37,496 nucleotides of DNA from a virus. The DNA lies in IMG/VR virus record IMGVR_UViG_3300037961_002992, positions 1-37,496 of that record; one strand, 5' to 3'. The notes below the pieces were generated by a model. The model worked only from the letters and a program-made list of their open reading frames with translations, made no database searches and was not told where the DNA came from. Shown piece after piece: positions 4,681-24,106 of this stretch. The position numbers were made by a program, and so were the translations under genes. Every line of letters begins with the position of its first letter. The stretch's first letter is position 1.

Positions 4681-5394
4681 ATGGCAGCACTTATTTGTAA
4701 CCTACCTTCAGTTGAAGTATGGGTTAGAAAAGAATATCTTACAGACCATCAAAGTGGTCATGGTGAGTTTGTTAAAGGCGTCTGGGTGTCGTGTAAGTCG
4801 ATACCTGGGCGCACTTTTTATTTTGAAACTTACTTACCAGAATATGCAGCAATGTATGATAAGTTACCTATCAGTGCATTTGTATCGGCACCAGAGACAC
4901 CAAGTCCTGATATGAACCTACCAAACTTACAGTTTTGGAATTGTATGGACTATGGTGTTGTTGCAGTTACAAAACAGTTTATTGGTAGTATGGACTATGA
5001 GTTGTATACTAGAGACTATGGTATACAGAAAGGTACATATATCTGTACTATCGATAACTATCATCAAGATCCAGAAGTTGTTGACTATGCTACAAGTGAA
5101 AACCCAGCAGAACATAAGTCACATAACCTAATTGAGTTAGAAAATGGTCAATATGCATTGTATCCTAACAATAGAATGCGTATCTATGATAATAGTTTGA
5201 CACCAATGGAACCAAAGATGCCTGACTTTAAGGTTTCAACGCAATATTATCAAGTTGAAAATGGTTTTGAACGTCTTGGTATGGGTCGTGAGGATGAATA
5301 TTTCTGGAAAACTTCAAAAGAACGTGTAGAAGAGAAAGAAACTATTGAAGAAATGTACAAATCACAAGATGGAAGACCACTTGACTCACAATAA
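4681..5394 (+). CDS. Conserved-looking virion-region hypothetical, 237 residues
   Basis: A 237-residue, Tyr/Asp/Glu-rich soluble protein just left of gp25. The first two thirds look beta-rich (Glu-Val-Trp-Val-Arg-Lys-Glu-Tyr; Gly-Val-Trp-Val-Ser-Cys-Lys; Phe-Tyr-Phe-Glu-Thr-Tyr-Leu-Pro-Glu-Tyr). A conserved-looking Asn-Met-Arg-Ile-Tyr-Asp region follows, and a charged helical tail (Lys-Glu-Arg-Val-Glu-Glu-Lys-Glu-Thr-Ile-Glu-Glu) closes the protein. It does not match gp53, gp5 or gp48 motifs I know. Position next to baseplate genes and a TAAATA-type box upstream suggest a late structural or assembly role. The ATG follows immediately after an out-of-frame ATG-TAA. Confidence 0.7.
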   Translation: MAALICNLPSVEVWVRKEYLTDHQSGHGEFVKGVWVSCKSIPGRTFYFETYLPEYAAMYDKLPISAFVSAPETPSPDMNLPNLQFWNCMDYGVVAVTKQFIGSMDYELYTRDYGIQKGTYICTIDNYHQDPEVVDYATSENPAEHKSHNLIELENGQYALYPNNRMRIYDNSLTPMEPKMPDFKVSTQYYQVENGFERLGMGREDEYFWKTSKERVEEKETIEEMYKSQDGRPLDSQ

Positions 5395-8101: not shown

Positions 8102-11100
8102 ATGGCAGAAACTAGAGTAAAAATCCAAACGATTCTTGAGAGTCAGCTTCCAGAGTATCTTGTGGAGGAAGCACCACTTCTTGTTGAGTTTCTTAAACAG
8201 TATTATATCTCACAAGAGTATCAAAGTGGACCAGCAGATATTGTTCAAAACATTGATAAGTATCTGAAACTGGAAGAAAACTCAGAAACAAAGGAGTTTA
8301 CTTATCTGTCTGATGACATTACGTCGTATGATACAGAGATTCCTGCCAGTGCATTGGGTGTTGGTGGGTTAATTAGTACCTTCACTCAGGGTTTTCCTGA
8401 TGAATATGGACTTTTACTCATTGATAATGAAATTATTACCTATGAAAGACGTAGTCAATACGCTTTTGAAGGATGTAAGAGGGGTTTTAGTGGCGTAAAG
8501 TCATACAGAAAGGACTCTACACCCGATGAACTGGAATTTTCAGAGTCTTCTGCGGCAAGTCACAAGAGAGAAGCACTAATTTACAACCTTAGTGCCAAGT
8601 TTTTAACAGAATTTTTCACAAAAGTCAAGCGACAGTTCATTCCAGGTCTCTCTGATAGAGAATTAGCATCAGGATTGAACCAAAGAAGCTTTGTTCCTAA
8701 TGCAAAAGACTTTTATGAGTCAAAAGGAACGGATGATTCGTTCAAAATTCTGTTTGGAGCACTTTATGGCGAAAGAGTTGACGTAATTAAACCCAGAGAA
8801 TACCTTTTCAGACCATCTGATGCTGGTTACAGAACAACAAAGGACTTAGTTGTTGAGGCACTTGAAGGAAATCCTTTAGATCTCTTAAATAACACCTTAT
8901 ATCAAGATGCATATCCTGAATATGGCATTGAAAACTCCTATGCATCCATCACTGACGTTCAAAAAATATTTGAAGACGGCAAAGAATTCTACAAATTGAG
9001 TTTTGATGCCGATTATGACAAAGATTTGACCCTTGAGGGAACTTTGTATGGCAATTTTGTTGTTCATCCCAAAACAAGAGTCATAACATCGACCAATTCT
9101 GGCGATACTATCATCGATGTTGACTCAACTGTTGGTTTTGGAACAACTGGCACCTTAGTTACTAAGTCTTCTTCGAGTGCAGACGTAAGTATTGCATACA
9201 CTGGCAGGTCAGTAACTCAGTTTTATGATATTGTTGGACTGACCACCACCGTTAGTAGTGGAACTGATGTTAGACTTGATGTTTTTGCATATGGTTACTC
9301 TGGTATAACTACTGAAAACCCAATTAAGGTAAGAATTGGTTCAGTTCTTGATGAAGTTAATATTTTAGGAGATACCACTCTCTTTACAGATAACGATACT
9401 GCAAAAATCAAGACTTTAGGTATTTCTTCAGAGACTATTAGAAGAAATAACTGGATTTACAACATTGCAAACAGTTATGATGTCTTATCCTTCACTTTGC
9501 GGGATAGATCTAACTTTACATATGACATTGAACTGCATGATGACCATATCTTCTACCTTGGAGACAGAATAAAACTCACCGACAGCACTTCGGAAACTGA
9601 AAATTCAACTGTTGTCGATATTTTGGGTCCAAGAAGAATATCTATCAGAGGACAAGGCGAATTAGACTCTGATTTGACTTATAGTATTGACAGATATATC
9701 CGTAAACCAAATTCTAGACGATATGGTGATGTCGTTGATAACACAGCGAACATACAAAACGTATATACCGACTATTCTGATAATGTTTTAGTTGCTTCTC
9801 CATCAATACCTTTTTATTATAACCAAGTCTTAGAACCCAATAATAAAAAGGTCACGTTCTCTGGCACTTTTAGTGGAGAACAGATTAAAATCATTTCCAG
9901 AAAGGACCACGGTTTCTATACAGGCGATAAAGTATATTATACTCCAAATCAGACCACATCAACTCTTCTTGATGATGATGGTGAAGTCATTGAAGTCACA
10001 AAAACTATTAATAGTAAACTTGATAATCTTGATGAAGGTTTATACTATGTTAAGAGAGTAAGTTCAACCACTATCAGTCTTGCAAAGAGTCCTTCAAACC
10101 TCAATAGTGGAGTTTTCATCACTGTTACTGGAACTGTAACTGATAACATTATTGAGTTCTACGATTTTAAGGATAAAGAACTTGAAATACAAAATATTGT
10201 AAGAGAATTTAAACCACCCGTCAATAAGAGTGAGACTTTTGAGACTAAACCTGGTAGAACTGGTATTTTCATCAACGGCGTTGAGATCTTAAACTATAAG
10301 TCTTCCGAAACTGTTTTCTATGGAGAAATTAGTAGCGTAGACGTTGCTGCTCCTGGTTTTGGATATGATGTTATCAATCCACCAAGTTTACATATCAGTG
10401 ACTCTCAAGGTATTGGTGCAACAGGAACTTGTGCTGTTACTGGTGCATTAGAAAGAATTGAAATAGTTGATACTGGGTTTGATTATGTCAACAAACCATT
10501 CGTCGTCATTACTGGTGGCGAAGGAAAGGGTGCATCTGCTGAAGTTAACACCACTAATGTTGAGCATAGTGTAACTTTCAACTCTGAGTCTTCATCGTCC
10601 GATCTTAACATCTTTACTGATACTATTGGGTTCTCTACCTATCATAAGTTCAGGGAAAATGAGCGTGTAATATACCTCTCAGACGGGCAGGAAGGCATCG
10701 CTGGACTTGGCACGGGGTCATCTTATTATGTGCGCCTAATTGACGGGTTCAGCGTCAAATTACACGCCAATGAGGATGATGCTATTGCTGGTATCAACAC
10801 AGTAAACATCAATGATTATGGTGTTGGTATTCATAGACTGAAGTCTGCGGAAGGTAAAGATATAATCACGGATATTGTTGTTACAAACTCAGGTGAAGGA
10901 TATAAGAACAAGGAAAGAGTAGCAACAACTGCAGGTATCAATACTGCACTTAGTTCTGTCAATATTGTATCTCATGGATACGAAACTGGTGAAGAAATTA
11001 AGTATTCAACCACTGGAACTGTTGTATCTGGTTTAACCACGACTACAAACTACCTGGTTAAGAAAGTAAGTGATGATTCGTTTAAGTTGGCACCAGTCGG

Positions 11101-14100
11101 TCTTGGAACTATTGCAAAAACATATTACTTGGATACTGAGCAGTATGCAGAGTTAGACTCTATTGGCGCTGGAGACCATAAGTTCAACTATACACCCATC
11201 ACTGTAAGTATTGTTGGTAACGTTGGAGTTTCTACCTTAGCAGGTCAAGACTTCTCAGCAAAAATTCAACCAGTATTCAGAGGATCGATTGATTCCGTTC
11301 AAGTTACCGCAAAAGGTTCTGAATACGGTTCTGACACAACTATCAACTATAATAGACAACCACAGTTCCACTTTAGAAGTGGAAATGCTGCCCAGTTGAT
11401 TCCTATCATCAATCGTGGTGTTATTCAGGAGGTTCTGGTAGTTAGAAATGGATCTGGTTTTAATAGTCCACCAGACCTTGTCATCAAAGGTAATGGCAAC
11501 TATTGCAAACTTACTCCTATCATTGATGGAGGAGAACTTAAGGAAGTTAAGGTCATTAATGGCGGTATTGGGTATGATGATACAACTACCATTGAAGCAG
11601 TTGGTGCTGGACAGAATGGTAGACTGTTGGCAAATATTCAGAGATGGACTGTCAACAACTTCCAAAAGTATTTCAACATTATTAGTAATGATGATGGTAT
11701 CATTACAGAGGCTAATAGAAGTGATAAAGGACTTCAGTATTGTCACCTTTATGCTCCCAGAAAACTAAGAGAGTCGGTATATGCCAGATCTCAAAGTTCA
11801 GGTAGTGCAGATATCAAAGACCTCATTCTGTATGGAATATCTGATCTTAGAAAGGTTAACAGTGAGGAAACTACTTCAACAAGTCACTCTCCAATAATTG
11901 GATGGGCATATGATGGTAACCCAATTTATGGACCATATGGTTTCTCCGAACCCAATGGCGGTACTGCCAAGTTGATGGAAAGTGGATATGAGTCGGTAAC
12001 TAAAACAAATAGACCACCAGTTGGCAACTTCCCTCAAGGATTCTTTAACGAAGACTTTGAGTATAAGGGAAGTGGAGACCTTGATGAACATAACGGAAGA
12101 TTCTGCGTAACTCCAGACTATCCAAATGGCACATATGCTTACTTCTCCACAATTAACCCTGGTGATGTAGATACTGATGGTCCATTCAAAAACTATAAGA
12201 GACCTGTATTCCCATACTTAATTGGACCCACCTTCCAGTCTGAACCCAATGCCTTCAACTTTAGTAAGGAGTCAAACCAAGATGAGTATGAGTTCACTGG
12301 GTTCAAGTGGTTCAGAAATACAACAAACTATCAACTGACATCATCTAACAGTTCTTACAAGTATGTCTTTGAACCTTATGATATTAAGGAGCAAAATGTA
12401 AATATTGAATATGTTACAAGAGGTAGCGTAGATAACATTGGCATTACAACTGGTGGTGATGGATATCAAGTTAACGATAGACTTAAGTTTGATAACTCAT
12501 TGACTGGTGGTAAAAATGCTTCTGCAAAGGTTGAGAAGGTTTTTGGTAAGAAAGTTCTTTCTGTTAGTGCTGCAACCACTTCATTTACTTCCGTTGAGTT
12601 TGCAACAATAGATGGTGTCGGAAATGTCATTGGTTTTACAACTTCACCACACGGACTGAAGAACCTTGAACTTGTTAATGTTTCTGGTCTCAATACTTCT
12701 TTCTCCAAGATTGAAGGTTCGTACTCTTTAGGAATTAGAACTGACAACTTTGTAACTACTCTTGGTATTAGCACAGTTGGTGTTACTGGTTTAACGACAT
12801 TCTTCTATGTTTCTGGTATCCTCGAATATCCATATGTCAGAGAGAATGACATTCTTGGTATTGGAACTCAAGAGAAAGTCAAAGTTCTGAATGTAGACCC
12901 AGATGCTGGAAGACTTAGAGTTCTTAGAGAATATGAGTCAACTGTAAGTTCTGCATACACTGCAACTTCAGTTCTTTATGAAGATCCCAGAAAGTTTAGA
13001 ATTAATACAGGGTTCAGAACTGACTACGCTTACAATGTAAACAGAGAACTGTATTTTGATCCATCTGAGTCTGTTGGTATTGGCACAACAACTGCTGTTG
13101 GTATTGGAACAACTATTGTATTCTCTGTTCCTGGTGCAGGTTCTACTCAGGTCTTTGTCCCCTCACAGTCAATCTTCTTACCAAAACACAATATTAAAAC
13201 TGGCGATAAAGTAAGATACTCCACTCACGGTGGTAGTGAAATTCGTGTATCGAATGGTTCAACTTCATTCTCACTGTCACAAACAGAAGATCTTTTTGCG
13301 GCAAGTATCACAAATGATTTCGTTGGCATTTCTACGGTAAAAATTGGTCTCAGCAGTGAAGGTTCCTTCGTAGGTGTTGGAACAACAAACTCTGCTGGAC
13401 TGTTGTTCTTTGAGTCCTTCGGTAGTGGTGTTCAGCATAGTTTCACAACCAAAAATGATTCTATTGTTGGAGAAGTTTCTAAAAATATCATTACAGTTGC
13501 AACTGGTTCAACTCACGGTCTTCTCACTGGAGATACTGTAGAACTGAGCAACATTGTTAGTGCTGCATCGACTATAACTGTAAAATATAATGACAACAAT
13601 AGAAGAGCAGTATTCAATCCAAAAGACTTCACTGCATCCGATGTAAGTGCTTCAGAAGATACTATTCGTATCTTAGACCACAACTTAGTGTTTGGTGACA
13701 AAGTAATCTACACCTCAGCATCTCCATCTGGTGGTCTTGAGAATGAAAAGATTTACTATGTTCTTCCTTTCACGAAGGATAAGGTAAGACTTTGTGCTAC
13801 CAAGTATGACTTAGAACTGGCAGATCCAAATTATATAAACATCACTAGCACATCTAGTGGAACTCTTTCTCCAGTCAACCCACAACTCAACCTTTATAAG
13901 AATAACTCTGTAAAGTTTGATGTTTCCGACTCTTCACTCTCCGCTATTAATGGTTCTACCGTTTATTCAGCATTCCAACTCAACTTCTACACTGACTCAA
14001 ACAACCACTATGAGTTTACAGCAACTGGAACTTCCAAGAACTTTGAAGTAGTAAGAACTGGAAGAGTTGGTATTGATACGAGTGCATCAGTCACTCTGCT

Positions 14101-17100
14101 TGTAAATGATCACTTCCCAGAGAACATTTACTACAACTTAGAGAATGATAATGTTGACTTTATCTCAGAAGTTAAGAAAGAAATTGTAACTGACACTGAG
14201 GTTTATAACCATAGTCAAGTTAACTTTGTTGATAGTAAGTATTCTGGAACTCATAGAGTTACTGGTATTGGAACTACCAACACATTTACGTTTGACCTGA
14301 AAGAATACCCAGAGAAAAACTCCTACGATCAGATTGATGCTGGTATTTCCTATCAAACCACATCATCAACTGCATTTGGCGCTATTTCTTTGGTTAAGGT
14401 TATCAATGGTGGCTCAAACTATGAAATTGCACCAGGAGTTAGCACAGTAACAACTTCATATGGTTCTGATGCTATCTTTGATATCAATACTAATACTATT
14501 GGCAATATTGTCAAGACTAAAGTAGAAGATATTGGTTTTGACTATCCTTCCGACCCAACATTGAGTCCATCTCTCAACTTGCCAGAGATTCTCAAGATTG
14601 ACCCACTTTCTTCTTTTGAAAGTATTGGTATTTCTTCTGCGGGTAAGGGATATTTCAATCCACCAACTTTGGTTGTAATTGACTCCTTCACTAAGAAGAG
14701 AATTGAAGATGTAGACATTAGATACATTGTTGGTGAACCAGAAGTCAAGATTGTGAAGAATACTTATGGTATTCACAATGCTCTTCCCGATATTATTCCA
14801 ACAGCAAACCCAAATGGTGTTGGTATTAATACCATTTCTTATAACTCCAGCACAAAAGATGTTGTAGTTGGTTTCAACACTGGTTTCAGTGATGCATTCC
14901 CATTCGCAGTTGGTGATAAAGTTCTTGTTGAAAACACAAGTGTTGGTGTCGGTTCAACTGCAAGAGGATATAACTCTTCAGCATATGATTATCAGTTGTT
15001 TGAGTTGACAGCAGTCAACCCTGCTTTGGGTGGAGTCACTGGTTCTGTTACATTCAACTTGGCATCTCTGCTAGAACCAAATGAGTTCCCAGGTATTCCA
15101 GATAACTCTGTTAATTCGGGCAGAATCATTAATAAGAATGACTTCCCTGTATTTGATATTACCCTTAGAAAAAATGACTACTTTGTTGGAGAAACTGTCG
15201 TTTCAGAGCGTGGTTCTGGTGTTGTTGAGAGTTGGAATCCTAAGACTGAATACTTGAAGGTTTCCACTAACAGAGATATTCCTCTTGGGGACTATCTTGC
15301 TGGTCAAACTTCAAATACTAGAGGTATTGTCAAAGAGAAGACTGACTTTGACTCTTTCCTGACACTCAACTCTACAGCAAAGGTCAATAAAGGTTGGATT
15401 TATGACACTGGAATGTTGAATAACAACATTCAAAGAATTGCTGACAATGATTACTATCAATACTTCTCATATTCACTCAAGTCAAGAGTTGACTATGGCA
15501 CTTGGGAAGAACCAGTTCAAACTCTGAACCATACTTCAGGTTTCCTTAAGTTCTCTGACTTAGTTCTTGAAAATGCTGATGGTGATAGAACTCATGCAAA
15601 TGTATTTGGTGATGATAGCGTTGCCTCCTTGACTGTTGACCTTGTTGGTTCTGGTAATATTAACTGCTTCTATGTTTTTGACCTTGCTTCTGAAAAGACA
15701 ACAGATATTGGCGCTGGCGGTATTATCTCAAACGAAATTGTCTTTGAAAATAGAACCCTTACAGACTTCTTCGAGTCTGTTGGAAACAGAGTTCTTGTCA
15801 TTGATGACTTTAGTGACCAGTTCAATAGCAATCCAAGAGCTACAAGGTTCTCTGTTGTTGATGAGTTTGATATTACTGCAGCAAGATACTTAAAGTACTT
15901 TACTTTCGTAAAAGATAGAAGATTTAATGATGAAAGACAGACAATGATTGTCTCTCTTCTCCATGATGATTCTAACTCTTATATTAACCAATATGGAAGA
16001 CTGAGCACTCTGCAGGAGTTAGGAGACTTTGACTTTAGTATTTCTGGAACTACTGGTCAACTTGCATTCTATCCTATCAAGTTTAGCGTCAACAACTATG
16101 ATATCAACCATGTTGTACATGACCTGAAGGATACTGTTGTTGGTGTTGGAAATACTGCATTGGGTTCAGTTGTTCATGTTGGTTCTGCTCAAACAACACT
16201 CGCCTCTGGAGCGACAGCAGCAACGACCATTGTTTCAATGGCAAATACATATCGTTCCGCAAAGATCCTTGTGGAGATTGGTGGAACAGATGGTTCATAC
16301 TATGAAGTAGATGAAATCAGTCTCCTTCACGATGGAACTGATGTTGATATTCTTGAATATGGTCAAATGACCAATGAAATATCGAGTCCAGATGGAACGG
16401 CAGGACTTGGAACTTATATTCCATACATTGATGGTTCTGATGTAAAAATTGACTTTAAACCAAATGCTGCTCTGGGTGTTGGTGTTACTATCAACTCCTT
16501 ACTCATTCAAATGTCCAGTGATGGAACAACTGGTATTGGAACACAAGAACTTAACGATGGTCTTGTAAGTTCTGGCATTGCTTCTATTAGTTCTTCTGCA
16601 ACTCCAACTGAGCATGTTATCACTGAGTATCCAAATTCACACTCTGCAGCATACTATGTTGTAAGTATTGAAGATACTACAAATACAGAGTATGAGTTCT
16701 ATGAAGTCATTGTAATTGATGATGGAACTTCAGCATCCATTACAGAGTTTGCTGCGATGAGAACAAACTCTACACTTGGCACTGTTGGCGCAGCAGTAAC
16801 AACCAATGGAACTCAAATTACATTTACTCCAGAGGCGAACATTGATGTTCAAGTCAGAGTATTCCAGAATGCTTTGAGAGTTACAAGTGTAACCAACTTG
16901 GGCAGTTCTATTGATTTCAATAACGCCGAAATAACTGGTGGTTCTGCTCTGTACGAAGGAACCAATACTTCAGTTAAGAGGTCGTTTGACTTAACTCATA
17001 ATGAGTTAATGATATTCCAGAGATATTTCCTGGGAGCTGACTCTGACATTGTTAGTGTTAGCAATAATACTGTTACTGTTCCAGATCACTACTTCGTAAC

Positions 17101-20100
17101 TGGTGAAGAACTGACATATACATTTGCTGGTGCAGGAACAACACAAGCAATTAGTATTGCTTCTACCACAGTTCCTGGTATTGGTCTTACTGATAAGTTA
17201 CCATCTACAGTTTATGCTGTTAAGTCAAATGAGAGTACACTCCAGTTTGCTCCTACTGCAGAAGATGCTCTGAAAGGAACTCCAAATACATTTGATATTA
17301 CTGCAGTTGGTATTGGAACATCTCACTGCCTGATTGCAAAGAACCAGAATACGAAGAACGTTCTTGCTATTGACAACTATATTCAGTCACCTATCGTTGG
17401 AACTTCACAAACAGTATCACTGGTAGAAGCAATTGATACTGGTGATAATAGGTTGAAGTTTAGTGGTATTACATCATTCTTTGGTGGCAACTTGATTCAG
17501 GTTGATGATGAGATAATGAAGATCAATACAGTTGGTCTTGGTAGCACTAATATTGTCTTGGTCGATAGACCTTGGATGGGAACAGGTCTTGCAGACCACA
17601 GTGCTAATGCTGAAATTAAGTTGGTTGAAGGTAACTACAACATCGTAGATAACACCATACACTTCGTGGATGCTCCATATGGTCTAACACCGATAGGAAC
17701 TACAACTAACGAAGATCCAAATGAAAGAGACTGGTTAGGTATTGCAACTCACTCTACTTTCCAAGGAAGAACATTCCTGAGAAGTGGAAAACAAAATACT
17801 GACCAAGAAACTTATACAACAAACTATGTGTTTGATGGACTTTCAAACCAGTTCACTGGTATTGCTAAGACATTTACATTGCAGTCGGATGGTCAAGATA
17901 TTGCAGGTTTCTCTACCAACAATGGAGTTCTGCTTATCAACGGAGTATTCCAAGGACCACAAGGTGCTCAGGCAATAACTCAAGACTATACTCTTGGCGA
18001 AAGTGCTGGTATCACCAGTGTTACCTTCACAGGAACTGCAACTTCTGCTGCATATGATGTAAACAATGCAAACATTCCTGTTGGTGGTGTTATCGTATCT
18101 GTCGGTTCTTCTGAAGGATTCGGTTTACAACCTCTGGTTGCTGCTGGTGGAACAGCGGTTGTATCTGCTGCTGGAACTATTTCTTCTATCTCTATTGGCA
18201 ATACTGGTTCTGGTTACAGAATTGGTATTCAAACAGTTGTCAATGTTGGTGTTCAAACTTCTAGCACTGGAATACCTAACATTGAGTTTATTGGTACAGC
18301 ATCAGTAAGTAACGGTCATATTATTGGAGTTGCTATTACTAACCCAGGTACTGGATATACTTCATCCAACCCACCTGCTGTTGTATTCGATGATCCACTT
18401 TCATATAATGATCTTGACCTTCATTATAGTTCTACTTCATCGCCTGGTATTGGCACACAAGCAAAAGTTGACATTGTTGTTGGACAAGGTTCTAGTGTCA
18501 TTGACTTTACTCTTAAGAACACTGGATATGGATATGGTCAGGGAGAAATTCTTACTGTTGAGATAGGTGGTAATAGTGGTATTCCAACTGATACCTCTAA
18601 ACCATACCTTGAGTTCAACTTAGAGATTGAAAAGACTTATAGTGACTTCTTCTCTGGATGGACACTGGGTCAGTTCCAAGTTCTGGATACTTATAATGGG
18701 TTGTTTAATGGAAGAGATAGGAAGTTCCCACTGAAGGTTGGTGGAAGTGCTATTACTATTAGAGCGAAGAAAGGTTCTAATATTGATATTCAAGCAACTT
18801 TACTTGTATTCATCAATGACATTTTACAGAAACCAGGTGAGGCATACAAGTTTAAGGGTGGTAGTATTATTGAGTTTACTGAAGCACCTAAGAAGGGCGA
18901 TATTGTAAAAACTATCTTCTATAAGGGTAGTGGTGACATTGACGTTATCTTCAGAGATATTCTTGAGACTGTAAAAGTTGGTGATACATTGACTCTGCAA
19001 AATGAACCAGGTTTCGGACAAGGTCCTGGTTTAATGCAAGACTCCAGAACTGTTATTGGTATCAATACAACTGACTCTGTTGAAACCAACCCATATTCTG
19101 GTCCAGGTATCACAACTGATGATACATTATTGAGACCAATTAAGTGGTGTAAGCAAACAAGAGAGAAAGTTATCAACGGTATTGTTGTTGGTAAAGATAG
19201 AGTTCACTACGAACCAAATATTCATCCTTCATCATACCTGATCAGTTCTGTTGGTATTGGTTCAACAGTTGCATATGTTGATAACCTGAGACCATTCTTC
19301 AACCCTCAAAATGAGTCTCCATTACTTTCTTTCCAGAACAAAGTAGTTGTTACCTCTCAAAATGTAATATCTGGTGCATCTGGAACTGCCATTGTTTCTT
19401 CTACTGGAGATATTTCTAGTATTGATATTACTGATGGTGGACTTGGTTACAACTCTGCACCAAATGTTATTATTCAAACTCCAGTAGGAATTGGAACAAC
19501 TCAGAAGGCAGAAGCAACTTCTACATTAACATCTGGTTCTGTATCTGCTATTACAGTCACATCGGCTGGAACAGGATACACCACATCACAACCTCCTGCA
19601 GTTATGATTGAACCACCAACACTTCTCAGTGAAACTGTTGAAGCAACATATGAAGGTGATTCTGGTGTTGTTGTTGGTGTTGGAACTACAACTCGTCAGA
19701 ACATATTTGACCTGTTCATTCCAGGAGATTCCTTTATGAGAGATACCACAGTTGTTGGTTCTGCAGTAACTATCAGTGGTATTTCGACGGGCGACTTCTT
19801 CATTCTGTACGACACCAATATTGGACTTGCAAATACATCTATTAACTCCTTTGACTCTTCAAACCAGTTGATTGGCGTTGGAACTCAGTTCCTTGATAAT
19901 GTATATCAAGTCAATACTTATGAAGATATTGTTGTTGATGTTACTGGAATTGGAAATACTCACGTCAGAAGAGTTTATGTAAATACTGGTATCAGTACAG
20001 TTGACTTCAGTTATAACACTATTACATTTGACTCAACTAACTTTGAGTTCAGTTCTGTTGGTTTTGGTACTGGCGATGGAGCATTCCAAGGAATGCAAAC

Positions 20101-20263
20101 ATCAAATTACTTCGGTAACTTTAGTTGGGGTAAGATATCATTTGGCAAACCTCTGGCAAATGGTTCTTTCAATGCATACACATCTGGAGGTATTGGTGGA
20201 ATATCAACATCCGCACTTATCAACAGATTTGCACCACTTAAGTTTAATAACTACACCAGTTAA
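8102..20263 (+). CDS. gp7: Giant gp7-like baseplate wedge protein with repeat modules and YHYH-like domain
   Basis: 4,053 residues, about four times T4 gp7 (1,032). Residues about 1-330 resemble the C-terminal part of T4 gp7; the clearest match is Asp-Phe-Tyr-Glu-Ser-Lys-Gly...Ser-Phe-Lys-Ile-Leu-Phe...Leu-Tyr-Gly-Glu-Arg-Val near 202-226. gp7 initiates the wedge by binding gp10 and gp8. The remainder is a chain of beta-rich units: GxGY repeats, HGxxTGDxVxY repeats and many Val-Gly-Ile-Gly-Thr links. Residues about 1262-1355 form a YHYH-like domain (Gly-Trp-Ala-Tyr-Asp-Gly-Asn-Pro-Ile-Tyr-Gly-Pro-Tyr from 1267; Leu-Asp-Glu-His-Asn-Gly-Arg-Phe-Cys-Val-Thr-Pro from 1327). No signal peptide or membrane span. 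Lies between gp6 and the gp9-like gene, as expected for gp7. The gp7 assignment rests on the N-terminus and position. Confidence 0.8.
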   Translation: MAETRVKIQTILESQLPEYLVEEAPLLVEFLKQYYISQEYQSGPADIVQNIDKYLKLEENSETKEFTYLSDDITSYDTEIPASALGVGGLISTFTQGFPDEYGLLLIDNEIITYERRSQYAFEGCKRGFSGVKSYRKDSTPDELEFSESSAASHKREALIYNLSAKFLTEFFTKVKRQFIPGLSDRELASGLNQRSFVPNAKDFYESKGTDDSFKILFGALYGERVDVIKPREYLFRPSDAGYRTTKDLVVEALEGNPLDLLNNTLYQDAYPEYGIENSYASITDVQKIFEDGKEFYKLSFDADYDKDLTLEGTLYGNFVVHPKTRVITSTNSGDTIIDVDSTVGFGTTGTLVTKSSSSADVSIAYTGRSVTQFYDIVGLTTTVSSGTDVRLDVFAYGYSGITTENPIKVRIGSVLDEVNILGDTTLFTDNDTAKIKTLGISSETIRRNNWIYNIANSYDVLSFTLRDRSNFTYDIELHDDHIFYLGDRIKLTDSTSETENSTVVDILGPRRISIRGQGELDSDLTYSIDRYIRKPNSRRYGDVVDNTANIQNVYTDYSDNVLVASPSIPFYYNQVLEPNNKKVTFSGTFSGEQIKIISRKDHGFYTGDKVYYTPNQTTSTLLDDDGEVIEVTKTINSKLDNLDEGLYYVKRVSSTTISLAKSPSNLNSGVFITVTGTVTDNIIEFYDFKDKELEIQNIVREFKPPVNKSETFETKPGRTGIFINGVEILNYKSSETVFYGEISSVDVAAPGFGYDVINPPSLHISDSQGIGATGTCAVTGALERIEIVDTGFDYVNKPFVVITGGEGKGASAEVNTTNVEHSVTFNSESSSSDLNIFTDTIGFSTYHKFRENERVIYLSDGQEGIAGLGTGSSYYVRLIDGFSVKLHANEDDAIAGINTVNINDYGVGIHRLKSAEGKDIITDIVVTNSGEGYKNKERVATTAGINTALSSVNIVSHGYETGEEIKYSTTGTVVSGLTTTTNYLVKKVSDDSFKLAPVGLGTIAKTYYLDTEQYAELDSIGAGDHKFNYTPITVSIVGNVGVSTLAGQDFSAKIQPVFRGSIDSVQVTAKGSEYGSDTTINYNRQPQFHFRSGNAAQLIPIINRGVIQEVLVVRNGSGFNSPPDLVIKGNGNYCKLTPIIDGGELKEVKVINGGIGYDDTTTIEAVGAGQNGRLLANIQRWTVNNFQKYFNIISNDDGIITEANRSDKGLQYCHLYAPRKLRESVYARSQSSGSADIKDLILYGISDLRKVNSEETTSTSHSPIIGWAYDGNPIYGPYGFSEPNGGTAKLMESGYESVTKTNRPPVGNFPQGFFNEDFEYKGSGDLDEHNGRFCVTPDYPNGTYAYFSTINPGDVDTDGPFKNYKRPVFPYLIGPTFQSEPNAFNFSKESNQDEYEFTGFKWFRNTTNYQLTSSNSSYKYVFEPYDIKEQNVNIEYVTRGSVDNIGITTGGDGYQVNDRLKFDNSLTGGKNASAKVEKVFGKKVLSVSAATTSFTSVEFATIDGVGNVIGFTTSPHGLKNLELVNVSGLNTSFSKIEGSYSLGIRTDNFVTTLGISTVGVTGLTTFFYVSGILEYPYVRENDILGIGTQEKVKVLNVDPDAGRLRVLREYESTVSSAYTATSVLYEDPRKFRINTGFRTDYAYNVNRELYFDPSESVGIGTTTAVGIGTTIVFSVPGAGSTQVFVPSQSIFLPKHNIKTGDKVRYSTHGGSEIRVSNGSTSFSLSQTEDLFAASITNDFVGISTVKIGLSSEGSFVGVGTTNSAGLLFFESFGSGVQHSFTTKNDSIVGEVSKNIITVATGSTHGLLTGDTVELSNIVSAASTITVKYNDNNRRAVFNPKDFTASDVSASEDTIRILDHNLVFGDKVIYTSASPSGGLENEKIYYVLPFTKDKVRLCATKYDLELADPNYINITSTSSGTLSPVNPQLNLYKNNSVKFDVSDSSLSAINGSTVYSAFQLNFYTDSNNHYEFTATGTSKNFEVVRTGRVGIDTSASVTLLVNDHFPENIYYNLENDNVDFISEVKKEIVTDTEVYNHSQVNFVDSKYSGTHRVTGIGTTNTFTFDLKEYPEKNSYDQIDAGISYQTTSSTAFGAISLVKVINGGSNYEIAPGVSTVTTSYGSDAIFDINTNTIGNIVKTKVEDIGFDYPSDPTLSPSLNLPEILKIDPLSSFESIGISSAGKGYFNPPTLVVIDSFTKKRIEDVDIRYIVGEPEVKIVKNTYGIHNALPDIIPTANPNGVGINTISYNSSTKDVVVGFNTGFSDAFPFAVGDKVLVENTSVGVGSTARGYNSSAYDYQLFELTAVNPALGGVTGSVTFNLASLLEPNEFPGIPDNSVNSGRIINKNDFPVFDITLRKNDYFVGETVVSERGSGVVESWNPKTEYLKVSTNRDIPLGDYLAGQTSNTRGIVKEKTDFDSFLTLNSTAKVNKGWIYDTGMLNNNIQRIADNDYYQYFSYSLKSRVDYGTWEEPVQTLNHTSGFLKFSDLVLENADGDRTHANVFGDDSVASLTVDLVGSGNINCFYVFDLASEKTTDIGAGGIISNEIVFENRTLTDFFESVGNRVLVIDDFSDQFNSNPRATRFSVVDEFDITAARYLKYFTFVKDRRFNDERQTMIVSLLHDDSNSYINQYGRLSTLQELGDFDFSISGTTGQLAFYPIKFSVNNYDINHVVHDLKDTVVGVGNTALGSVVHVGSAQTTLASGATAATTIVSMANTYRSAKILVEIGGTDGSYYEVDEISLLHDGTDVDILEYGQMTNEISSPDGTAGLGTYIPYIDGSDVKIDFKPNAALGVGVTINSLLIQMSSDGTTGIGTQELNDGLVSSGIASISSSATPTEHVITEYPNSHSAAYYVVSIEDTTNTEYEFYEVIVIDDGTSASITEFAAMRTNSTLGTVGAAVTTNGTQITFTPEANIDVQVRVFQNALRVTSVTNLGSSIDFNNAEITGGSALYEGTNTSVKRSFDLTHNELMIFQRYFLGADSDIVSVSNNTVTVPDHYFVTGEELTYTFAGAGTTQAISIASTTVPGIGLTDKLPSTVYAVKSNESTLQFAPTAEDALKGTPNTFDITAVGIGTSHCLIAKNQNTKNVLAIDNYIQSPIVGTSQTVSLVEAIDTGDNRLKFSGITSFFGGNLIQVDDEIMKINTVGLGSTNIVLVDRPWMGTGLADHSANAEIKLVEGNYNIVDNTIHFVDAPYGLTPIGTTTNEDPNERDWLGIATHSTFQGRTFLRSGKQNTDQETYTTNYVFDGLSNQFTGIAKTFTLQSDGQDIAGFSTNNGVLLINGVFQGPQGAQAITQDYTLGESAGITSVTFTGTATSAAYDVNNANIPVGGVIVSVGSSEGFGLQPLVAAGGTAVVSAAGTISSISIGNTGSGYRIGIQTVVNVGVQTSSTGIPNIEFIGTASVSNGHIIGVAITNPGTGYTSSNPPAVVFDDPLSYNDLDLHYSSTSSPGIGTQAKVDIVVGQGSSVIDFTLKNTGYGYGQGEILTVEIGGNSGIPTDTSKPYLEFNLEIEKTYSDFFSGWTLGQFQVLDTYNGLFNGRDRKFPLKVGGSAITIRAKKGSNIDIQATLLVFINDILQKPGEAYKFKGGSIIEFTEAPKKGDIVKTIFYKGSGDIDVIFRDILETVKVGDTLTLQNEPGFGQGPGLMQDSRTVIGINTTDSVETNPYSGPGITTDDTLLRPIKWCKQTREKVINGIVVGKDRVHYEPNIHPSSYLISSVGIGSTVAYVDNLRPFFNPQNESPLLSFQNKVVVTSQNVISGASGTAIVSSTGDISSIDITDGGLGYNSAPNVIIQTPVGIGTTQKAEATSTLTSGSVSAITVTSAGTGYTTSQPPAVMIEPPTLLSETVEATYEGDSGVVVGVGTTTRQNIFDLFIPGDSFMRDTTVVGSAVTISGISTGDFFILYDTNIGLANTSINSFDSSNQLIGVGTQFLDNVYQVNTYEDIVVDVTGIGNTHVRRVYVNTGISTVDFSYNTITFDSTNFEFSSVGFGTGDGAFQGMQTSNYFGNFSWGKISFGKPLANGSFNAYTSGGIGGISTSALINRFAPLKFNNYTS

Positions 20264-20291: not shown

Positions 20292-22508
20292 ATGGCAAGA
20301 GTAGGAATAAATACTGGTTCCACCGCTAATGATGGAACTGGTGATAGTCTAAGAGCCGCAGGTGGAATAATTAATAGTAATTTTACTGAAATTTATAGTC
20401 AGCTCGGGGACGGCACTAATTTATCTGCAACTTGGGAGAAAACTTCCGCTGGTATTAACTCAACGGCAAACGTTGGTATTGGAACAACAAATCCACAGTT
20501 CCAACTTGAAGTTGGGTATGCTGGTGTTGCAGATACCTCTCTATTCGTTCATGGAAATGCAAGAGTTACGGGCATCTTAACTGTTGGTGCTTCTTCCATT
20601 GTAATTGATGGTAGTAAGAATGAAGTTCTTATTGGAACTGGAGTTTCCCTTAATGGTGCCACTGGCATTATTAGTGCCACACAAGTTTATGCTGGAGGAA
20701 CTCTTCTCACTGGAGGTTCTGGTGGTTCTGCTGATAGTTTCTGGGTAGAAGAAGGTTCTACTGGTATTACAACAACCAAGAATGTTGGTATTGCAACTGA
20801 TTCAGCACCATCTGCATTGACTGTTGGTGGACAATCATTGCTTTTAGGTATTACAACTTTTAGAGAGAATGTTATTCTTTCTAATCCAAATTCTGGAGCA
20901 TCAAATAACCTGAACTTTGGTGGTGATACCTATATTGACCAGAGTAGCGGTGATACATTTACATTCCAAATCAATACTGGTTCAGATACAAATACTACGG
21001 ATGGTAGTTTCGTATTTAGAAATACTGAACCAAACACAGATCCAATTCCAGACTTCCAGTTAGACGCTCTGAGAATCTACACCAGAGGTGACTATTGGAA
21101 TGGTATGGTCAGATCCTATACCGACTTCCATGCAGACCAAAATGCATTTGTTGGTGGTGATCTTCAGGTTGGTGCTGCAAGCACACTCATCGGTGCAGGA
21201 AATACTCTTGGTTCATTTAAAGTTGGTGCTGGTGGAACTGTTATTAGCACCAGTGCTTCTGGTTTAGTTGGTATTGGTAGTTCAGTTCCTTCTGTTGAAC
21301 TGGATGTTTCTGGAAATGTTTCAGTATCATCTTCAGTCACTGCAGCAACTTTCTATGGTGATGGTCAGTATCTGTCCAACATTGGTACTGCTGCTACTGC
21401 TGATGTAAGAACAAATACATTTGCAGCGAGTGGTGTTTCTACTTTTAGTGGTCATGTTGCTCTTTCAACATCATTAAATGTTGCGGGCATTGTCACGGCA
21501 CAAGATGGTTTAAGAATTCCTGGAGGAACTTTCGCTGATACTCGACTTGAATTGGGAAATAGTCAAGAGTTTAGTTTCCAATACAATACAGCATCAACTA
21601 AAGGAATAGTTAGAGTTTCTTCTCAAGATCTTGATATTGAGGCAAAAAATATTGGTTTATATCCTAATAATGGTGAGAATGGTGTACTCGCAAAACAAAA
21701 TGGTGCTGTAGAACTCTATCACGCCAACTCCAAAAAATTTGAAACCACTGGTGCTGGTGTTACTGTATATGGAACTACTCAAACCCAGCAATTAAACGTC
21801 TCTGGTCTTTCTACATTTAATAGCAATATAAGATTTGATGCCACTGGTCTATTTCCTTACAGTGAAACTTTGAACTTTGGTTCAAATACTTCTCAGGAAG
21901 GACAACTTTTTGCAACCAGTGAATATTTCTACATCAATTCATCTGCTGACAATGGAGTCTATGTTCAAACAAATGGATTCATTGAGTTAAAGAGTGGCAC
22001 TGGTTCGGACAAATACATTGAAATGAACTCTCACCCGAACCATAATGGTGAGGTTTCACTTTATTATGATGGCAATAAGAAACTTGAAACCAGTTCTAGT
22101 GGCATAGAAGTTGCTGGTATTGTAACTGCAATATCTGGTGTTTCAACTTTCTATGGCGATGTTTCCAAAGCAGCTGCTGGAAGATGGTACTTAGGTGCTG
22201 GTGCTGGTAATACATCATACTTCTTCACTGGTATTGGATTTACAAACGTTGATTATGCACATAACCCAGTTATGCACCTTGCAAGAGGTCAAAGATATGA
22301 GTTTGTGAATGAGATGGATGCTCATCCATTCCAGATTCAGTCTGGAAGCATTGGTGGAGATCCATATGATCCTGGTGTTACCAACAATGGTTCACAAAAT
22401 GGAACAATTGCTATTGAAGTTCCATTCAATGCACCAAACCAGTTATTCTATCAGTGTACTTCTCACTCTGGTATGGGTGGCACCTTTACAATATATCCTT
22501 CAATCTAA
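20292..22508 (+). CDS. gp9: gp9-like tail-fibre/baseplate protein with C-terminal cupredoxin-like domain
   Basis: 738 residues. Residues 13-41 (Asn-Asp-Gly-Thr-Gly-Asp-Ser-Leu-Arg...Ile-Ile-Asn-Ser-Asn-Phe-Thr-Glu-Ile-Tyr) resemble the N-terminal baseplate-binding part of T4 gp9, which joins long tail fibres to the wedge (T4 gp9 is 288 residues). The middle has fibre-type repeats: Asn-Val-Gly-Ile-Gly-Thr-Thr-Asn-Pro, and Ala-Ala-Thr-Phe-Tyr-Gly-Asp-Gly-Gln-Tyr-Leu-Ser-Asn. The last 100 residues resemble a cupredoxin: Ala-His-Pro-Phe with His678, then Tyr-Gln-Cys-Thr-Ser-His-Ser-Gly-Met, giving Cys722, His725 and Met728. That Cys-x2-His-x2-Met spacing equals amicyanin. Copper binding is inferred. 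Sits between gp7-like and gp8 with its own late promoter. Confidence 0.75.
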   Translation: MARVGINTGSTANDGTGDSLRAAGGIINSNFTEIYSQLGDGTNLSATWEKTSAGINSTANVGIGTTNPQFQLEVGYAGVADTSLFVHGNARVTGILTVGASSIVIDGSKNEVLIGTGVSLNGATGIISATQVYAGGTLLTGGSGGSADSFWVEEGSTGITTTKNVGIATDSAPSALTVGGQSLLLGITTFRENVILSNPNSGASNNLNFGGDTYIDQSSGDTFTFQINTGSDTNTTDGSFVFRNTEPNTDPIPDFQLDALRIYTRGDYWNGMVRSYTDFHADQNAFVGGDLQVGAASTLIGAGNTLGSFKVGAGGTVISTSASGLVGIGSSVPSVELDVSGNVSVSSSVTAATFYGDGQYLSNIGTAATADVRTNTFAASGVSTFSGHVALSTSLNVAGIVTAQDGLRIPGGTFADTRLELGNSQEFSFQYNTASTKGIVRVSSQDLDIEAKNIGLYPNNGENGVLAKQNGAVELYHANSKKFETTGAGVTVYGTTQTQQLNVSGLSTFNSNIRFDATGLFPYSETLNFGSNTSQEGQLFATSEYFYINSSADNGVYVQTNGFIELKSGTGSDKYIEMNSHPNHNGEVSLYYDGNKKLETSSSGIEVAGIVTAISGVSTFYGDVSKAAAGRWYLGAGAGNTSYFFTGIGFTNVDYAHNPVMHLARGQRYEFVNEMDAHPFQIQSGSIGGDPYDPGVTNNGSQNGTIAIEVPFNAPNQLFYQCTSHSGMGGTFTIYPSI

Positions 22509-22537: not shown

Positions 22538-24106
22538 ATGGCTGCAATAATTACTGACCAACTTCGTATATTGAATGCAAAAAACTTTGTGGCGGGAGTT
22601 GCATCTACAAGCAACTCCTACTATTCGTTTGTTGGTCTTCCAAACCCAACTGATTATGACACTGATTGGAATACGTCACCACCTTCACCAGTAGATAACT
22701 TCAATCAAACTAACAATCATTGGGATACAATGATTGCAATGAAGAAGATATCAAAGTCTGATGTCAGGCAGGTCATCAGAAGAAGTGTGTGGACATCTGG
22801 TATCACTTATGACATGTATCGTCATGATATCAGAGCAACGAATCCATCTCAACCATCAAATGCGGTTGACTTGTATTCGGCAAACTATTATGTAATGAAT
22901 AGTGACTATAGAGTATATGCTTGTTTGCAGAATGGGACTTCTCCAGAAAACCCTTCTGGGAGACCTTCACTTGATGAACCAACTTTCACAGATCTAGAGC
23001 CAAGAGAAGCGGGAACTAGTGGCGATGGATATATCTGGAAGTATCTTTACACTATCAGTCCAAGTGATATTGTAAAGTTTGATGCTACTAACTATATGCC
23101 TGTTCCTCAGGATTGGGAAACAAGCAGCAGAGAAGCAGCCGTTAGAGATAATGCAGCAACTAGCGGACAGTTGAAAATTGTCACCATTACCAATAGGGGT
23201 GTTGCATTAGGAGAAGCAAACAAGACATATACTAAAGTTCCTATCAAAGGAGATGGTGCTGGTGCCGAAGCAACAGTTGTTATCAACAATGACTCAAAAG
23301 TTCAGTCAGTAACTATTTCAAGAGGTGGTTCTGGATACACCTTTGGAACACTGGATCTTTCTGCTGGTAATGTTCCAACTGGAACAACTGCACCAACATT
23401 TGATGTTATCATTCCACCCCAAGGTGGTCACGGTGCAGATATCTACAAAGAGTTGGGTGGATATAATGTTCTTCTTTATTCTAGAATTGAAAACGATTCA
23501 CAGAACCCAGACTTCATTACAGGCAACCAAATTGCAAGAGTTGGTATTGTAGAAAGTCCTCTTGCATATGATTCTAACAGTATTCTTACCTTAGATAAAG
23601 CAAGTGCTGTTTATGCACTTAAGTTGACTGGTGTTGGTTATAGTGAAGCAACATTCAACCCAGATACTCAAATACGACAAACCATTGGTATTGGATCAAC
23701 TGCATTTGGTAGAGTTGTTTCTTATGACTCAAATACTGGAGTTCTGAAATATTGGCAAGATAGATATCACGTTGGTTTCAACACTGATGGAACTCAAAAT
23801 GCATCTCCAACTTATGGGTTTGATATGCATAGGTTTACTGCTGACACTGGAAGTGGTGGTTCTTTCAATATTTTAGGTGGTAGCACTACGCTGGCAATTC
23901 AAACATCGTTTGGTAGCGAAAGTAACCCAGGTATAAGTACCGTAATAAATAGTAGGACATATTATTTGGGTCAGCAATTTATTAAAGGTGTGTCTCAACC
24001 AGAAGTATCAAAATACTCTGGAAATACGATTTACGTTGATAATAGACCCTCAATTACTAGGTCATCAAACCAAAAAGAAGATATCAAAGTCATTTTGCAA
24101 TTCTAA
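22538..24106 (+). CDS. gp8: Baseplate wedge subunit gp8
   Basis: 522 residues, longer than T4 gp8 (334). gp8 dimers bind gp7/gp10 and gp6 in the wedge. The N-terminal half follows the gp8 pattern: an Ile-Ile-Thr-Asp-Gln-Leu-Arg-Ile start, Tyr-Tyr-Ser-Phe-Val-Gly, Asn-His-Trp-Asp-Thr-Met-Ile-Ala-Met-Lys-Lys, then Tyr-Asp-Met-Tyr-Arg-His-Asp, and Asp-Gly-Tyr-Ile-Trp-Lys-Tyr-Leu-Tyr near 165-175. Residues about 218-290 carry a GxGY unit (Arg-Gly-Gly-Ser-Gly-Tyr near 263) of the kind found in the giant protein, which accounts for part of the extra length. The closing 20 residues return to gp8-like sequence. The next gene starts 6 bases later. Confidence 0.85.
   Translation: MAAIITDQLRILNAKNFVAGVASTSNSYYSFVGLPNPTDYDTDWNTSPPSPVDNFNQTNNHWDTMIAMKKISKSDVRQVIRRSVWTSGITYDMYRHDIRATNPSQPSNAVDLYSANYYVMNSDYRVYACLQNGTSPENPSGRPSLDEPTFTDLEPREAGTSGDGYIWKYLYTISPSDIVKFDATNYMPVPQDWETSSREAAVRDNAATSGQLKIVTITNRGVALGEANKTYTKVPIKGDGAGAEATVVINNDSKVQSVTISRGGSGYTFGTLDLSAGNVPTGTTAPTFDVIIPPQGGHGADIYKELGGYNVLLYSRIENDSQNPDFITGNQIARVGIVESPLAYDSNSILTLDKASAVYALKLTGVGYSEATFNPDTQIRQTIGIGSTAFGRVVSYDSNTGVLKYWQDRYHVGFNTDGTQNASPTYGFDMHRFTADTGSGGSFNILGGSTTLAIQTSFGSESNPGISTVINSRTYYLGQQFIKGVSQPEVSKYSGNTIYVDNRPSITRSSNQKEDIKVILQF

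Follow-up and report, generated by a model that had tools for sequence, protein, structure and literature searches.

The last ~110 residues of a 738-residue tail protein from a T4-like cyanophage almost certainly form a cupredoxin domain with a full set of copper ligands, as judged from structural models and profile comparisons. Built onto the gp9-like protein that carries it, this domain probably gives cyanophage gp9 a functional type 1 copper site, and the pattern of sequence conservation makes it likely that copper would be bound in the virion at the predicted site, His678, Cys722, His725 and Met728. Metal sites on phage tails are known already, with iron at HxH motifs (PMC11705849), and so are cupredoxins; the combination of a cupredoxin with a phage tail, and its spread among marine phages, appears to be undescribed. 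A search of the open-licence literature found nothing relevant on phage cupredoxins, blue copper or copper-binding tail proteins.

The gp9-like gene and its neighbours

The window, meaning the whole stretch of DNA that was analysed, is a 37,496-base virus fragment from a T4-like cyanophage whose nearest named relatives are Synechococcus and Prochlorococcus phages. The forward-strand open reading frame at 20292-22508 begins with ATG, is open to its stop codon and encodes 738 amino acids. By sequence comparison its product is a T4 gp9-like baseplate/tail-fibre connector. The family phrog_677, annotated 'baseplate wedge tail fiber protein connector', matches it across residues 1-737 (E 1.7e-33), and the gp9/gp10 N-terminal family PF07880 scores 27.7 bits against a cut-off of 25, two results that uphold the gp9-like baseplate anchor suggested in the preliminary description of this DNA. 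The position of the gene among the baseplate wedge genes is that of gp9, with gp25, gp6 and gp7 upstream and a wedge subunit downstream, followed by genes for head-tail and sheath proteins and for the small subunit of terminase. The same order of wedge genes around the gp9-like gene is found in RB11-B and P-TIM68. The features discussed below are as follows.

8102-20263, + strand: upstream neighbour, gp7-like baseplate wedge protein, 4053 aa (phrog_2885)
20292-22508, + strand: gp9-like baseplate wedge/tail fibre connector, 738 aa (open reading frame; phrog_677 over residues 1-737, E 1.7e-33)
20307-20429, + strand: N-terminal gp9/gp10-like baseplate anchor, residues 6-46 (PF07880, 27.7 bits; mean column identity 0.64 among full-length relatives)
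20430-22160, + strand: variable fibre-like region, residues 47-623 (mean column identity 0.26-0.48 over residues 47-600; tail fibre PHROG matches)
22161-22505, + strand: predicted cupredoxin domain, residues 624-738 (AlphaFold2 pLDDT 84; Foldseek and VIA; profile matches)
22323-22325, + strand: His678 codon, first copper-type ligand, in AHPFQI (96/96 relatives; sits on the plastocyanin ligand His in hhalign)
22455-22475, + strand: ligand loop Cys722-x2-His725-x2-Met728 (96/96 relatives; 27/31 in the ligand-masked search; on the plastocyanin ligands)
22538-24106, + strand: downstream neighbour, baseplate wedge subunit, probably gp8-like (phrog_438, E 1.6e-163)

Two further observations concern genes nearby. 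The gp7-like open reading frame contains, at window position 11900 (+), a YHYH-like motif, GWAYDGNPIYGPYG. Just upstream of the baseplate genes, at 4681-5394 (+), lies the gene for a 237-residue protein that matches phrog_3704, a family labelled 'ferredoxin' (E 5.9e-116).

Predicted fold and ligand residues

AlphaFold2, run on the C-terminal domain together with 15 relatives, returned an eight-strand Greek-key model of the cupredoxin type with a mean pLDDT of 84. When this model was compared with the PDB using Foldseek, the listed matches were copper cupredoxins. The top score in VIA, a DALI-like comparison, was a Z of 10.2 for the N-terminal domain of a three-domain nitrite reductase (2dv6), with small laccases and rusticyanin at about 9, and resemblance extended to pseudoazurin and amicyanin structures. 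Folding of the full-length protein gave a mean pLDDT of 46, with most of the C-terminal domain at 74-89 and no confident model elsewhere. In the domain model His678 lies directly before one strand, Cys722 ends the penultimate strand, and His725 and Met728 fall in the loop leading to the last strand. These are the strand and loop places of blue-copper-type ligands, and the cupredoxin-like fold first proposed from the DNA letters is thus borne out by structure prediction.

At the level of sequence, only profiles, and not single sequences, linked the domain to copper proteins. The window's protein used as a single query found no match among PDB sequences; its domain alone matched no Pfam family, PF00127 (Copper-bind) included, nor the amicyanin model TIGR02657 at E values up to 1, and it fell below the curated cut-off of every copper family searched. 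None of the family libraries searched labels it copper-binding, and a plasmid search gave no match. A profile built from 38 sequences, run against PDB sequences, listed 21 matches, 20 of which are cupredoxins: NirK (E 0.0098), amicyanins (from 0.013), then plastocyanin, pseudoazurin and azurin. Among the 38 relatives themselves, PF00127 was the most frequent Pfam family (20/38), the best relative reaching 21.1 bits, just under the cut-off of 21.2, and the NCBIfam models for halocyanin, amicyanin and plastocyanin were matched by 25, 24 and 9, the amicyanin matches being weak. The profile searches of PDB sequences and the amicyanin matches among relatives agree with the amicyanin-type loop spacing claimed in the preliminary description. 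Taken singly these matches are weak, and as a group they all lean the same way. In hhalign, the domain profile aligned to picocyanobacterial plastocyanins with 93.5% probability (E 2.4e-7, for one comparison), with each of the four ligands, His, Cys, His and Met, falling on its plastocyanin counterpart. When HMMER aligned the profile to amicyanin, the first His fell two residues away from the amicyanin ligand; its register is therefore taken from the plastocyanin alignment and the strand positions.

All four proposed ligands were recovered in the translated open reading frame at canonical sequence positions. His678 (codon at 22323-22325) lies within DAHPF, and Cys722 (22455-22457), His725 (22464-22466) and Met728 (22473-22475) lie within YQCTSHSGM. 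Since Cys722 is the sole cysteine of the 738-residue protein, no intrachain disulfide can explain its conservation. The C-x2-H-x2-M motif is absent from the eight other window products checked. When the residues of the domain were shuffled 200,000 times, the pattern H-x(38-50)-C-x2-H-x2-M came up 36 times, and a chance origin of the motif was rejected on conservation.

Every one of 96 distinct relatives has the same residues at the positions of His678, Cys722, His725 and Met728, and also of Phe671 and Tyr720, at a mean column identity of 72%, and the four ligands are kept in 102 of the 104 members of a wider set. Some of the search patterns included Cys or Met and might have selected for ligand-bearing relatives. 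A profile with the four positions hidden was run on 23 phage records, and 27 of its 31 distinct matches hold the full set, 26 of them in register; the other is S-SKS1, whose loop reads C-x4-H-x2-M, with two extra residues between Cys and His and all ligands present. Three more are short partial matches, two of them showing neither Cys nor His. The sole full-length exception is the second copy in RB11-B, from which His, Cys and His have been lost together. Furthermore, P-RSM6 gp9, which was found via its N-terminus alone, has the full ligand set, and with the masked profile this counters a selection effect as the cause of the invariance. Homologues therefore do not freely lose these residues, and the complete candidate type 1 site described for the end domain of this tail protein is confirmed as a predicted fold with its ligand set.

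The second copy in Synechococcus phage RB11-B (record positions 203664-203930) belongs to a 782-residue protein in which F, A and V stand in place of His, Cys and His and the Met is kept. Judged from its sequence, it is a natural ligand-free control that is otherwise fully cupredoxin-like.

That copy bears on a different reading of the domain, in which the cupredoxin fold serves only as a stable beta-sandwich for binding a virion protein, the ligands persist because they help packing or hold some other metal, for instance zinc, and copper is unbound in nature. Copper-free cupredoxin folds exist, for example in ephrins and some phytocyanin-like proteins; the RB11-B copy is still recognisable as this fold by its sequence although His, Cys and His are gone, and the other strictly kept residues, Phe671 and Tyr720, are structural. 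Under this reading, however, ligands should be lost piecemeal, whereas nearly every copy retains the complete set and, in the exceptions, the loss is joint, as expected for residues working as one site. Moreover, Cys-x2-His-x2-Met with an upstream His is specific to copper cupredoxins. We consider a copper-free sandwich unlikely and prefer a functional type 1 copper site.

Distribution and candidate roles

Some 324 phage records contain the domain; almost all of these are marine cyanophages, and the annotation is mostly gp9. The window's phage is one member of this large family, and it is the family, more than any single genome, that is of interest. In the cyanopodoviruses P-SCSP2 (L118:1456-2769) and P-GSP1 (L119:1444-3300) the domain stands at the start of fibre proteins, and it is therefore a movable module. 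It is also present in a tail fibre of a Pelagibacter phage and in an S-H9-1 protein described as 'subtilisin-like'. Bins assigned to Rickettsiales, Planctomycetota, Gammaproteobacteria and Bacteroidetes include contigs (L108-L112) whose genes encode the domain, mostly in gp9-like form; these are probably phage contigs in those bins. Matches in enterobacterial T4-like phages are limited to the N-terminal region of gp9, and S-CREM1 gp9 (L160:3001-4326) joins the same N-terminal anchor to a different C-terminal domain without copper ligands. That some phages, such as S-CREM1 with its gp9 and P-SSP7, do without the domain counts against a copper role. Taken together, these sequences suggest that many marine phage particles may carry a copper-type metal site on their tails.

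Among the window's closest kin, mean column identity is 0.64 in the anchor, 0.76 in the cupredoxin domain and 0.26-0.48 over most of the fibre between them, a middle region that matches tail fibre PHROGs. Host-recognition tips usually diversify, and because the cupredoxin tip does not vary in this manner, its constancy more likely stems from a partner or a chemical task that is itself conserved. A structural or junction role is the best fit to this conservation. Cyanophage gp9 would thus consist of a baseplate anchor and a C-terminal cupredoxin domain, both conserved, with a fibre-like stretch that varies between them. The cupredoxin domain may act as a junction or docking head, stabilised by metal, at the edge of the baseplate, where it would bind a partner that is conserved too. 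T4 gp9 is a fibre connector, and for that reason the docking head could perhaps hold the long tail fibre. A stabilising role for the metal at such a junction is put forward tentatively, at somewhat less than even confidence. If the T4 stoichiometry of six gp9 trimers holds, there would be ~18 sites per virion.

The fold, the ligand set, its near-invariance and the fusion to a baseplate protein are what the computations show. Copper loading would take place inside the host or, once the cell has lysed, in seawater. Because the cytoplasm in which phage proteins arise is reducing and poor in copper, loading of the domain is not self-evident.

Type 1 copper is a redox site, and copper redox at the host surface might alter the hold or release of tail fibres by gp9, tuning infection to an active photosynthetic host. 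Adsorption depends strongly on light in P-HM2 but not in P-SSP7 (PMC7112961). Four copies of the domain are present in P-HM2, and no copy was found in P-SSP7. The P-HM2 copies, however, are divergent and lie in other large proteins, and the Pelagibacter phage carries the domain although its host is not photosynthetic by chlorophyll. S-PM2, whose adsorption is reportedly light-dependent, retains only a degenerate remnant, and a light or redox role in adsorption is therefore not supported. The three phages compared thus lend no support to a link between the domain and light-dependent adsorption, and we regard such a switch as improbable.

Another proposal is that the tail displays bound copper and a host metal receptor captures the phage. 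Here there is precedent in published work on marine phages, which places iron at tail fibre HxH motifs and sets out the Trojan horse idea (PMC11705849), and the domain is located in tail proteins. No host copper receptor is implicated, however. Because the copper of a type 1 site is buried and tightly bound, such a site is poorly suited to presenting a metal, and docking of this kind seems highly improbable. One could also picture a widespread, so far undescribed class of virion proteins with type 1 copper sites, located on baseplates and fibres across marine phages, that would tune fibre deployment or adsorption through copper loading or redox state; we think this unlikely.

If the site does bind copper, cyanophages, which are among the sea's most abundant viruses, carry blue-copper-type centres in their particles, with a bearing on tail cohesion, on the light and redox response of adsorption and on the partitioning of trace copper in surface water. 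A protein family annotated until now only as connector or hypothetical also gains a concrete, testable biochemical property.

Comparison with known systems

The closest known family is the cyanophage gp9 of phrog_677, which shares with the window's protein its N-terminal anchor, its C-terminal domain (profile positions 304-411 of 412) and its place among the wedge genes. Its annotation mentions no cupredoxin or metal. The window's protein is longer, with 738 residues versus about 410, owing to the fibre-like middle.

Amicyanin, halocyanin and plastocyanin (PF00127, TIGR02657, TIGR03102, TIGR02656) have in common with the window's domain the fold, the ligand set, the C-x2-H-x2-M loop and an alignment of all four ligands. 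They are small exported electron carriers, whereas the window's domain is fused to a virion protein, scores under all the curated cut-offs and has H-P-F-x-I at the first His. The genomic setting of amicyanin also differs, in that the methylamine dehydrogenase genes are replaced here by baseplate and head-tail genes.

By structural Z, the type 1 copper domain of nitrite reductase (2dv6; 10.2) and the small laccases and multicopper oxidases (about 9) come closest. The H-P-F-x-I stretch is similar to the motif around the type 1 His in multicopper oxidases, except that the other histidines of that motif are replaced, these positions being Gln, Glu or Arg in the window's domain. Unlike nitrite reductase and the laccases, the domain has no evident second copper centre and no enzyme context. 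The T4 gp37-type HxH iron sites (PMC11705849) are likewise metal sites on a phage tail, with a different fold, different ligands and iron as the proposed metal.
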